Below, piece after piece: positions 506 to 3,995 of a DNA stretch of 26,206 nucleotides. Both the position numbers and the translations under genes were made by a program. Numbering within the stretch: the stretch's first letter is position 1; every line of letters begins with the position of its first letter. The stretch comes from a virus. The DNA lies in the IMG/VR virus record IMGVR_UViG_3300025141_000635, positions 1 through 26,206 of that record; one strand, written 5' to 3'. Under the pieces are notes generated by a model. The model saw nothing but the letters and a program-made list of their open reading frames with translations. It was not told the origin of the DNA and did no database searches.

Positions 506-922
506 ATGAGAACTCAATTACTTTGTACATTCACAAAACGTAATAAATTTTACGAAACAGTCAATATAATAATTGAATGTAATGAAATTTTATTTGATAA
601 AATTTATGTGTTTCAAAATGAAAATGATCATCATCAATTGATTTGTACATATAACGTAGAATATGATGATAATTTTATGGATGGTATTCCAGATACTATT
701 TCATTACATAGAAAGAAACAAACAAATACACTCTATACAATTAATGCATTAAATGATGTTATCAGAGAATTGAATAATGGTAAATTAGATAAATCGTTTC
801 CAATACCCTGGGACAATTATAGAAATTGCTTGTTGTTAACTAATGAAGAAGGTTTAACAGCAATACCAACAAGAATTTATACAATAGTAGATGTAAAAAC
901 TTGGGATAAAGATAAAAAATAA
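506..922 (+). CDS. Unrecognised phage protein, about 138 aa
   Basis: Function not recognised. The frame can start at ATG 491, 497 or 506. I favour 506, which lies one base after the stop of the upstream gene, but no clear Shine-Dalgarno decides it and the longest form is 143 aa. The protein looks soluble, with alternating hydrophobic and polar segments, for example around IIIECNEILFDKIYVFQNEN, that suggest beta strands. There is no obvious motif or membrane helix. The following 97-base gap carries a candidate promoter, so this gene probably ends a transcription unit before the replication genes. Confidence 0.65.
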   Translation: MRTQLLCTFTKRNKFYETVNIIIECNEILFDKIYVFQNENDHHQLICTYNVEYDDNFMDGIPDTISLHRKKQTNTLYTINALNDVIRELNNGKLDKSFPIPWDNYRNCLLLTNEEGLTAIPTRIYTIVDVKTWDKDKK

Positions 923-923
923 A

Positions 924-952
924 TTGTATTTTCGGCGATTCGATTATATATA
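924..952 (+). promoter_or_regulatory. Candidate sigma70-like promoter upstream of gene 32
   Basis: TTGTAT (924-929) is separated by 17 bases from TATATA (947-952), within the run TTATATATATTAATGTA. The spacing is ideal but the region is so A+T-rich that chance matches are easy. It would drive the ssDNA-binding protein and downstream genes. Similar TATATAT-containing boxes lie upstream of the RNR and clamp genes. Confidence 0.4.
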
Positions 953-959
953 TTAATGT

Positions 960-977
960 ATCAAGGTTACACTTGAT
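960..977 (+). promoter_or_regulatory. Small hairpin in the gene 32 leader
   Basis: ATCAAG (960-965) and CTTGAT (972-977) form a 6-bp stem with loop GTTACA, in the leader 43 bases before the gene 32 ATG. It is followed by TAAAAAA, not a T-run, so it is not a classical terminator. In T4, gp32 represses its own translation by binding its leader, so an operator role is possible, but only by analogy. Confidence 0.25.
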
Positions 978-1019
978 TAAAAAATGACAATTAACTAATT
1001 AAATAATAGGAGATAACAA

Positions 1020-1784
1020 ATGGATTTAAACGCAATCAAGAAACGTCTTAACCAACTTCAAACAACAAATACTCGTACTACTAATCTTTGGAAACCCCAG
1101 CCGGGGCAACAGGTGATTAGAATAGTGCCTTACAAATACAATAAAGATAATCCTTTTATTGAATTGTATTTTCATTATGATATAGGTGGAAAATCTTATC
1201 TTTCACCAGTTTCATTTGGTCGTCCTGACCCGATTGAAGAATTCGCACAGAAACTAAAGTCAACCGGTTCAAAGGATGATTATAGACTTGGTAAGAAAGT
1301 TGAAGCTAAAATGAGAACTTTCGCACCAGTTGTAGTTCGTGGTGAAGAAAATCAAGGAGTAAGGTTTTGGGGATTCGGTAAAACTGTATATCAGGAATTG
1401 TTATCTATTATAGCAGATCCAGATTATGGTGATATTACGGATCCAACAAACGGGCGTGATGTAGTGGTTGAGTTTAAGACAGCTGAGGAAACAGGGAAAT
1501 CATTTCCCTCAACGTCCATTAGAGTCAAACCCAATCAAACTCCAATTACAGAGAATGCAGAGGTTCTTGAAACCATAAAGAAAACTCAAAAAGATATTCG
1601 TGAGATTTATAGTGAAATGACTTATGAAGAACTTACGGATACATTAAATGAGTATCTAAATGGTGGTTCAGAAGATGATTCAGTAGAGAAAAAAGAAAAA
1701 GTAGTATCATCTACTGTAACTGAATCAACAAACTTTGATGCTAAAGATACAGCATCTGCATTTGATGATTTATTCAATAAATAA
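1020..1784 (+). CDS. 32: Single-stranded DNA-binding protein, T4 gp32-like
   Basis: Likely the phage ssDNA-binding protein that coats unwound template and recruits replication and recombination proteins. At 254 aa it is somewhat shorter than T4 gp32 (301 aa). It has a basic N-terminal segment (residues 5-30, KKRLNQLQ then a Trp-Lys-Pro-Gln element), an OB-fold-like beta-rich core with aromatic residues (FHYDIGG, VRFWGFGKTVYQEL near 120-130), then a Ser/Glu/Asp-rich linker and a C-terminus ending AFDDLFNK, the acidic/hydrophobic tail type used for partner contacts. There is no Cys in the protein, so the Zn site of T4 gp32 is absent. Start ATG 1020 has AGGAGA upstream at a good distance. Position next to the recombinase, flap nuclease and helicase supports the call. 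Confidence 0.85.
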   Translation: MDLNAIKKRLNQLQTTNTRTTNLWKPQPGQQVIRIVPYKYNKDNPFIELYFHYDIGGKSYLSPVSFGRPDPIEEFAQKLKSTGSKDDYRLGKKVEAKMRTFAPVVVRGEENQGVRFWGFGKTVYQELLSIIADPDYGDITDPTNGRDVVVEFKTAEETGKSFPSTSIRVKPNQTPITENAEVLETIKKTQKDIREIYSEMTYEELTDTLNEYLNGGSEDDSVEKKEKVVSSTVTESTNFDAKDTASAFDDLFNK

Positions 1785-1791
1785 ATAACCT

Positions 1792-1888
1792 AATGGTGGT
1801 GGTTGAAGGCTGAGATAAAACCGCCCAGTCATCCGAGATTCGAATCGAAATTTCGCGAAATACGTGGCTACCGGGTATCACCACCATT
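1792..1888 (+). ncRNA. Candidate structured RNA or leader element between gene 32 and uvsX
   Basis: A 12-bp stem pairs 1792-1803 (AATGGTGGTGGT) with 1877-1888 (ATCACCACCATT), with one G-T wobble. It encloses 73 nt. Inside are overlapping palindromes: GATTCGAATC (1837-1846), CGAAATTTCG (1846-1855 with flanks) and ATTTCGCGAAAT (1850-1861). A GGC/GCC hairpin (1808-1810 with 1823-1825) is also possible. It is much more G+C-rich than the surrounding DNA. TTTT follows the stem, and the Shine-Dalgarno GGAG of the recombinase gene lies only 8 bases past it. It could be a terminator/attenuator, an operator, a ribozyme or an independent small RNA. It is not a cloverleaf: the TTCGAAT segment is not in T-arm position on either strand. 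No riboswitch or ribozyme class was recognised. Confidence 0.55.
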
Positions 1889-1906
1889 TTATAATTGGAG
1901 AGTGAT

Positions 1907-2989
1907 ATGTCAACAAGAGACAAATTGGCTGAAGTATTAGCCAACACCCTAAACAAACAATTCAAGGATATGAAAGTTGCGTATTTCTTGGATGGAACAG
2001 ACACAACACCCACCGACATTAAAGATTTTGTATCTACAGGTTCAACTGTGTTAGATTTGGCTATTTCAAATAAACCACACGGTGGAATTGCTGTCGGCAG
2101 GATTACTGAAATAAACGGATTAGAATCAAGTGGTAAATCACTGCTTGGTGCACATATATTAGCAGAAACTCAACGTAAAGGTGGAGTAGCTGTTTATATA
2201 GATACAGAAACTTCCGTTAGTACTGAGTTTCTTAGTGCAATAGGTATTGATGTGGATAGTATGTTATATCTACATTTAGAAACAGTTGAAGATGTTTTTG
2301 AATCAATTGAAGAAATTGTAGCAAAAGTTAGAGAGTCAGATAAGGATAGATTAGTAACTATTTTAGTAGATTCACTTGCTGGTGCTACTACAAAAGTAGA
2401 GTTAGAAGCAGATTTTGATAAAGATGGTTGGGCTACTGCTAAAGCAATTATTATATCTAAAGCAATGAGAAAGATTACACAGATGATTGGTAGAGAGAAG
2501 ATAGCTCTTGTCTTTACAAACCAGTTAAGACAAAAACTTGGTGTAATGTTCGGTGATCCGTGGACTACAAGTGGTGGAAAAGCATTACCATTTCATGCGT
2601 CAACACGAATAAGATTGAAAAATCTTGGACAAATAAAAGATAGTAAGAAAAATACAGTAGGAATAAAAATCAGAGCACAAGTTATTAAAAATAGACTTGG
2701 GCCTCCAATGAGACATGCTGATTTTGAGTTATATTTTGAAACAGGTATTGATAACAAAGGTAGTTGGTTACAAGTATTAAAGGATCATAAATTGGTAAAG
2801 CAAGGTGGTGCTTGGTATACTATGGTAAATCATAAAGGAGAAGAAATTAAATTTCAATCTAAAGATTGGGCAACATATTTAGAAGGAGAGTTTAAAGAAC
2901 ATTGTTATCAATTAATTTGTGATAAAATTATACTGAAGTATGAAAAGAACTTTGGAATAGATGATGTAGTTGTATTAGAAAATGAATAG
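1907..2989 (+). CDS. uvsX: RecA/UvsX-family recombinase
   Basis: ATP-dependent strand-exchange protein for recombination-dependent replication and repair. It would form filaments on ssDNA together with the upstream ssDNA-binding protein. From ATG 1907 it is 360 aa. Walker A is GLESSGKS (residues 71-78); a Walker B-like ILVDSLAGATTK segment follows near 160; and TNQLRQKLGVMFGDPWTT resembles the L2/DNA-binding region of RecA, with SGGKALPFHAS just after. These motifs look closer to bacterial RecA than to T4 UvsX, yet the gene order is T4-like. I chose ATG 1907 over TTG 1895 because GGAG (1897-1900) stands 6 bases before it. It overlaps the next gene by 8 bases. Confidence 0.93.
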   Translation: MSTRDKLAEVLANTLNKQFKDMKVAYFLDGTDTTPTDIKDFVSTGSTVLDLAISNKPHGGIAVGRITEINGLESSGKSLLGAHILAETQRKGGVAVYIDTETSVSTEFLSAIGIDVDSMLYLHLETVEDVFESIEEIVAKVRESDKDRLVTILVDSLAGATTKVELEADFDKDGWATAKAIIISKAMRKITQMIGREKIALVFTNQLRQKLGVMFGDPWTTSGGKALPFHASTRIRLKNLGQIKDSKKNTVGIKIRAQVIKNRLGPPMRHADFELYFETGIDNKGSWLQVLKDHKLVKQGGAWYTMVNHKGEEIKFQSKDWATYLEGEFKEHCYQLICDKIILKYEKNFGIDDVVVLENE

Positions 2990-3995
2990 GAAATATCTCT
3001 CAATTTTTGAAGAGATAAAATCTAAGGGCGGTAAAATAAATGGTCGAGAACCTAACGATAAAGTACTCATAGTAGATGGCCTGAATACTTTTATTAGAGT
3101 GTTTAGTGTTATACCAACTACCAATGATGATGGTATTCACGTTGGTGGAATAGTTGGTTTTTTAAAGAGTATTGGTTACACCATTAATATGGTTAGGCCT
3201 ACTCGTGTTATCATTGTTTTTGATGGCAAGGGTGGGTCTGATCGACGCCGTAAACTTTATCCAGAATATAAAGATAAAAAAAGAACTAAATATCGTTTAA
3301 ACAGAAGTTATGATTTTGCATCAATGGATGATGAACGACAAAATATGTTGATGCAACTCCAACGTAGTGTAGAATATTTAGATACTTTACCACTTTTAAC
3401 TTTATCATTTGATCATATTGAAGCAGATGATACGATTGGTTATATTAGCAGACAAGTACTTACTGATTCTAAGATTGTTATTATGTCAACTGATAAGGAT
3501 TTTTTACAGTTGGCTAATCAAAGAATAAAAATATGGAGTCCAACTAAAAAGAAAATGTATGATGAGAATGCTGTATTAGAAGAGTATGGTATTTCATCTC
3601 ATAATTTAATTTGGTATAGAGTTTTAGATGGTGATAAATCTGATAATATACCAGGGGTTAAGGGATTTGGATTAAAGACAATTCAAAAAAAGTTACCGTT
3701 TTTAAGGGAAAATAGTATAGCTGATATAAATGATGTTATTACTGAAGTTCCTGATTCAAAAGAAATTATAGAAAGAAATTATAAATTAATGCAGTTATCA
3801 GATGTTAATATATCTGCTTCTACAAAAACAAAAATAACTAAAAGAGTAAATGAACCAATTAATAGATTAATAAAATATAAATTTCAAACAATGTTTATGG
3901 AAGATAAACTGTATACGTCACTTCCAAATGTAACGAGTTGGTTAGCAACTAATTTCAATCAACTGAATAATTATGCTGAGAAAACATATGAGTGA
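2982..3995 (+). CDS. rnh: 5'-3' exonuclease / flap endonuclease (T4 RNase H-like)
   Basis: A FEN-family nuclease that removes RNA primers and 5' flaps during lagging-strand synthesis, 337 aa (T4 RNase H is 305). The metal-binding acidic residues are visible in order: D32 in VDGLN, D81 in FDGKGGSDRRRKLYPEYK, E147/D149/D150 in EADD, D171/D173 in STDKDF, and D218/D221 in GDKSDNIPGVKGFG, which also gives the helix-hairpin-helix DNA-binding motif. The Arg-rich stretch after D81 is typical of the family. It starts within the end of uvsX, with no strong Shine-Dalgarno, so translation is probably coupled. It overlaps the helicase start. Confidence 0.92.
   Translation: MNRKYLSIFEEIKSKGGKINGREPNDKVLIVDGLNTFIRVFSVIPTTNDDGIHVGGIVGFLKSIGYTINMVRPTRVIIVFDGKGGSDRRRKLYPEYKDKKRTKYRLNRSYDFASMDDERQNMLMQLQRSVEYLDTLPLLTLSFDHIEADDTIGYISRQVLTDSKIVIMSTDKDFLQLANQRIKIWSPTKKKMYDENAVLEEYGISSHNLIWYRVLDGDKSDNIPGVKGFGLKTIQKKLPFLRENSIADINDVITEVPDSKEIIERNYKLMQLSDVNISASTKTKITKRVNEPINRLIKYKFQTMFMEDKLYTSLPNVTSWLATNFNQLNNYAEKTYE

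Follow-up and report, generated by a model that had tools for sequence, protein, structure and literature searches.

The stretch of DNA analysed here, termed the window, is a 26-kb IMG/VR virus record (26,206 nucleotides) that is T4-like as judged by its gene content. The gap between the stop of gene 32 (g32; position 1784) and the start of the recombinase gene uvsX (position 1907) holds a compact structured RNA element, hereafter type A, which sits 5' of a Shine-Dalgarno-like GGAG just upstream of the uvsX start (Table 1). The closing stem P1 (1792-1803/1877-1888) comprises 12 base pairs including one G-U, with TGGTGGTG/CACCACCA at its core. The G+C content reaches 46% at 1801-1900, compared to 20-43% in the other nearby 100-base blocks, and folding of the 97 nucleotides is better than that of all 200 shuffled versions (z -2.84). 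The preliminary description of this DNA had proposed a G+C-rich island with a 12-bp closing stem at this site, ahead of the Shine-Dalgarno sequence, and these features are all borne out. It had also pointed to three overlapping palindromes; these exist, but are located in P3, the non-conserved part of the RNA, whereas the conserved heart formed by UUGAAG, AUAAAACCG and CCGG had been missed. The Shine-Dalgarno sequence of uvsX lies outside the fold. A sigma-70-like match (TTGACA-16-TAAAAT, 11/12) runs antisense into the element on the minus strand (1913-1886), in a region where the count of such matches is at chance level.

Table 1. Parts of the type A RNA in the window and the two neighbouring genes
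Feature	Positions	Strand	Basis or remark
Gene 32, single-stranded DNA binding protein, upstream neighbour	1020..1784	+	PHROG 1192, E 4e-15
Type A RNA, entire	1792..1888	+	Match to covariance model R2; family alignments
P1 5' arm, 12 bp with 1877-1888	1792..1803	+	P1 covaries in relatives
Invariant junction UUGAAG	1803..1808	+	No change in either alignment (A1, A2); part of the gathering pattern, so invariance partly by construction
P2 5' arm GGCUGAG, partner 1824-1830, one A-C mismatch	1808..1814	+
P2 loop AUAAAACCG	1815..1823	+	C1821 C1822 G1823 in pseudoknot with C1872 G1873 G1874
P2 3' arm	1824..1830	+
P3 region, variable hairpins, overlapping palindromes in the window; sequence and length free across the family	1831..1870	+
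Conserved CCGG, 3' side of the pseudoknot	1871..1874	+
P1 3' arm, followed by UUUAUAAUU	1877..1888	+
uvsX recombinase, downstream neighbour	1907..2989	+	PHROG 97, E 1e-68

The same core occurs at the same place in many of 80 uvsX relatives. The family was gathered with a core pattern that matched at least 120 viral stretches and, after removal of chance matches, comprises at least 83 distinct type A sequences of about 55-110 nt, all from uncultivated viral contigs. Six of the rejected matches (L131, L137, L141, L162, L174 and L198) have no P1. Type A copies share the invariant segments UUGAAG, AUAAAACCG and CCGG, the invariance of which is partly built in as the gathering patterns fix them, in addition to covarying stems P1 and P2, a free-form P3 and a 3-bp pseudoknot. 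They fall into two subtypes, A1 (GUUGAAGCCA ... AAAGCCGG) and A2 (GUUGAAG ... ACCGG), the latter being that of the window. Two contigs of 55 kb and 113 kb (L303 and L324) carry divergent type A copies with a short CCAA/UUGG stem and a long P3. A covariance model, R2, was built from A1 only, leaving out the window and its subtype; it replaced an earlier model based on the RNAalifold structure (R1), which had lost P2. This model, derived only from other phages, returned exactly 1792-1888 in the window, with 23.8 bits and an E-value of 4e-4. A second match, in G015 (E 0.0095), resembles coding sequence and was set aside as chance.

Consistent with the preliminary description, which assigned the element to no recognised class, Rfam 15 at gathering thresholds gave no match in the window or in 17 relatives; permissive scans yielded only chance-level matches, far below gathering scores. 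On the window, ARAGORN did not identify the element as a tRNA or tmRNA, and the TPP-like look of GGCUGAGAU is due to chance, as relatives lack it. Outside the uncultivated viral contigs, scanning 84,980 prokaryote species genomes for the exact pattern returned a single match (L201), which lies within an apparent calcium-binding repeat protein and is attributable to chance. Type A was not found by blastn against isolate phages and plasmids, nor by the covariance model in Microcystis phage Mel-JY01, Pelagibacter phage HTVC008M and three uncultured megaphages; a literature text search, conducted mostly on sources other than subscription journals and preprints, found no description of it. Altogether, the window's element belongs to a family of small, pseudoknotted phage non-coding RNAs that had not been catalogued before.

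The type A fold consists of the closing stem P1, the hairpin P2 and an optional, freely varying hairpin P3. The CCG of the P2 loop (AAUAAAACCG) pairs with a CGG located just 5' of the P1 3' arm, forming a pseudoknot that is also present in the window copy. Strong covariation, which the preliminary description had named as a check on related phages, was found in the alignments of both subtypes. In the A1 alignment (31 sequences; P1, P2 and pseudoknot), 142 cells are double-changed, compared to 43.7 +/- 5.9 in shuffles and 15-32 in slid structures, and 95.7% of the cells are paired. P1 of A2 (14 sequences) has 13 double changes against 3.4 +/- 1.5 in shuffles. P2 covaries in A1, and in A2 it can be formed by most members in one of two registers. 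The third pair of the pseudoknot is G-C in nearly all copies; it is compensated to U-A (CCU/AGG) in L202 and to A-U (CCA/UGG) in L210. Pattern scans revealed no real variants of the other two pairs, the remaining matches to the variant patterns lacking the rest of the motif. The P3 hairpins are formed in most members that have P3 and are better than shuffles (p 2e-10, by a statistic that ignores relatedness).

Type A was found in 30 of 40 viral records, and 28 of these 30, including seven of 101-188 kb, have a single copy; copy number is less certain for the positives at the uvsX site, which are mostly fragments. The record L163 carries a second, divergent copy, the L202 mentioned above. Three genomic settings could be distinguished. 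In many T4-like contigs, the RNA occupies the g32-uvsX gap, a few nucleotides after the g32 stop and with about 13-35 nt left to uvsX. Larger phages have it among tRNAs and a tmRNA (22 copies in such loci), where Rfam identified only GOLLD, tmRNA and tRNA and nothing for type A; GOLLD was confirmed in the type A clusters of L083, L124, L165 and L182. In a third, scattered setting, it lies upstream of genes for a PD-(D/E)XK nuclease, an SPL-like radical-SAM protein, a methylase-like protein and others. No constant downstream gene was found across the type A loci, and the tandem repeats seen in type III toxin-antitoxin RNAs (ToxI-like) are absent, nearly all records being single-copy.

The cluster phages are kin of the window's phage, with uvsX proteins 59-66% identical, and in all three with a readable junction g32 and uvsX are separated by 5-13 nt that contain no element. 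Half of the cluster copies (11 of 22) start a few nucleotides after TTTGG/TTAGG...TATCTTTG, which we take to be a promoter of Bacteroidota type, and 10 of 22 are placed 2-4 nt after a tRNA-Met; a further promoter lies behind most copies. Further small structured-looking RNAs lie beside type A in these clusters (L165:2945-3020, 3195-3262 and 3655-3700; L091:500-546). One of them, with a conserved AUAGGYRAUGAAAGAUACUC core and no Rfam match, is found 3' of type A in most cluster phages.

These settings bear on the proposal of the preliminary description that the element controls recombinase dose. A riboswitch or protein operator, bound for instance by gp32 or UvsX, that tunes uvsX translation would suit the position just 5' of the uvsX Shine-Dalgarno sequence in many phages. 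However, that sequence is not part of the fold, the same RNA occurs in clusters where no gene follows, as well as before unrelated genes, and uvsX of close relatives is preceded by bare hairpins or by nothing. We consider such a role very improbable; dose control is not supported by an RNA that is present usually once per record, at many sites without uvsX, and whose place at the uvsX site can be taken by another RNA class or a bare hairpin, or left empty. The usual single copy per genome, at varying positions, suggests a portable RNA gene rather than a recombinase switch.

The tRNA-rich setting raises the alternative of a new self-cleaving ribozyme that would cut phage transcripts, namely the g32-uvsX mRNA in the window's setting and tRNA/tmRNA precursors elsewhere. 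With its size, pseudoknot, invariant junctions and free P1 and P3, type A has the typical traits of a small ribozyme, a self-cleaving RNA would show the same conservation, and many copies lie 2-4 nt behind tRNA-Met, where theta ribozymes occur (PMC10879173). Those minimal HDV-like ribozymes are likewise small, pseudoknotted and located directly behind phage tRNAs, often tRNA-Met (PMC10879173). By hand judgement from the alignments, however, the HDV-like strand order does not seem to fit: the P1 arms of type A enclose all else, whereas the HDV-like fold is a nested double pseudoknot (P1-P2-P3-P3'-P1'-P2'). In addition, about half of the cluster copies are preceded by their own promoter rather than by a tRNA and have a further promoter shortly downstream, so that no obvious product would be freed by cleavage; a single copy per genome would also be odd for a tool that processes tRNA arrays. 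A ribozyme is rather unlikely in our assessment.

Comparison of the g32-uvsX site in 79 loci (78 relatives and the window) revealed type A in 31, a second RNA class B in 11, a third class C in nine, a plain hairpin in 16 and little or nothing in 12, with labels assigned by simple string rules and checked by eye. The content of the site has changed at least 24 times on the uvsX tree, and the close relatives L019, L020 and L005 have near-identical flanks but different fillings of the stem. A G+C-rich hairpin is nevertheless kept in most of the 79 loci though its interior changes, and the G+C fraction of P1 is 0.62 at the uvsX site compared to 0.42 elsewhere, in a comparison that ignores relatedness. 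Since interiors swap between near-identical flanks and P1 is more G+C-rich at this site, the stem looks like what the g32-uvsX site requires and the interior like separate cargo.

Class B is a conserved RNA with the motif YACAGA ... CUGU ... GCCUAAC inside a GUGGGU stem; it occurs in 44 viral stretches and has no match in Rfam, and a loop-to-junction pseudoknot (ACAG/CUGU) looks possible. It occupies g32-uvsX gaps in L005, L014, L016, L022, L027, L060, L066, L075 and L078 and lies elsewhere in L222 and L240; the label was rejected for L029 and L035-L037, which have no hairpin there. Class C is a looser motif in the same stem (GGCUAGGGU ... ACUG ... UCUGGAGCC), seen in the g32-uvsX gaps of L011, L047, L048, L057, L038 and L051. 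Upstream of uvsX in L050 and L054, a class B-like RNA and a type A RNA stand in tandem with a copy of the g32 tail between them, an arrangement that looks like the product of recombination at short flanks.

The retained hairpin and its higher G+C content at the uvsX site are what would be expected of a cis-acting inter-cistronic element, in which P1 serves as a terminator or attenuator, an RNase processing site or a 3'-end stabiliser that separates the abundant g32 mRNA from the less abundant uvsX mRNA, and the interior merely stabilises the hairpin. Such an element does not account for an interior that is near invariant and pseudoknotted, which would be pointless in a plain hairpin, or for the retention of type A at other sites in phages that lack it between g32 and uvsX. 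The U tract is also broken (UUUAUAAUU after P1), and a scan of the plus strand from 900 to 3100 for terminators with loops of 3-8, a range that does not reach the 73-nt loop, found no terminator-like site. The terminator considered in the preliminary description is thus unlikely in its canonical form, although P1 may be an inter-cistronic hairpin. As a full account, a cis element seems doubtful to us, and a recombinase riboregulator or a plain terminator fits less well than a portable RNA gene.

Type A can further be compared with other phage RNAs. A pseudoknot upstream of T4 gene 32 is autoregulatory and nucleates gp32; type A shares the pseudoknot and, in the T4-like window, the proximity to gene 32, but lies downstream of the gene and is also found away from it. 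T4 also encodes two small stable non-tRNA RNAs, C and D, among its tRNAs, and type A resembles them by description as a small non-tRNA RNA among phage tRNAs. The manA and wcaG motifs (RF01745, RF01761) of T4-like cyanophages, proposed to be cis-regulators of metabolic genes, are similarly structured RNAs of T4-like marine phages, whereas type A has no Rfam match (PMC2864571). The marine-only candidate motif Ocean-VI, which has no Rfam number, was compared by description only and may or may not be identical to type A (PMC2864571). Like type A, GOLLD (RF02032) is a structured phage non-coding RNA and is reported downstream of tRNA-Met (PMC12286853), and the two share clusters; GOLLD, however, exceeds 400 nt and has an unrelated fold, and type A also lies between g32 and uvsX.

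On balance, we lean towards type A being a portable RNA gene, probably trans-acting, whose P1 doubles as an inter-cistronic hairpin. It is movable, usually present once per genome and in one lineage equipped with its own promoter, which together suggest an RNA gene acting in trans; the case for trans action is built on position and copy number, and expression as a discrete RNA and the dual role of P1 are likewise inferred. Most likely, a protein or some other partner would recognise the rigid pseudoknotted core that the RNA presents. For the window's lineage, we envisage co-transcription with g32 and uvsX; there, the G+C-rich P1 would double as the hairpin retained at this junction by most of these phages and may act in mRNA end protection, processing or partial attenuation. 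More tentatively, type A might found a new functional class of phage RNA that works in trans, either as a catalyst or by targeting proteins, with roles such as translation takeover or counter-defence. In the same reading, it would be one of several unrelated pseudoknotted cassettes (A, B and C) for which the g32-uvsX site is a hot spot of exchange among uncultivated T4-like phages, and which these phages also maintain in GOLLD/tmRNA clusters.

Type A, a well-supported structured RNA family, turned up here in neither isolate phages nor bacterial genomes and is therefore absent from curated RNA libraries. With its consensus defined, cleavage, pull-down and expression in infected cells can be tested directly. 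By occurring both in the recombination operon and in the GOLLD/tmRNA RNA cluster, the family links two places in phage genomes; it also provides a small, easily synthesised companion to GOLLD.
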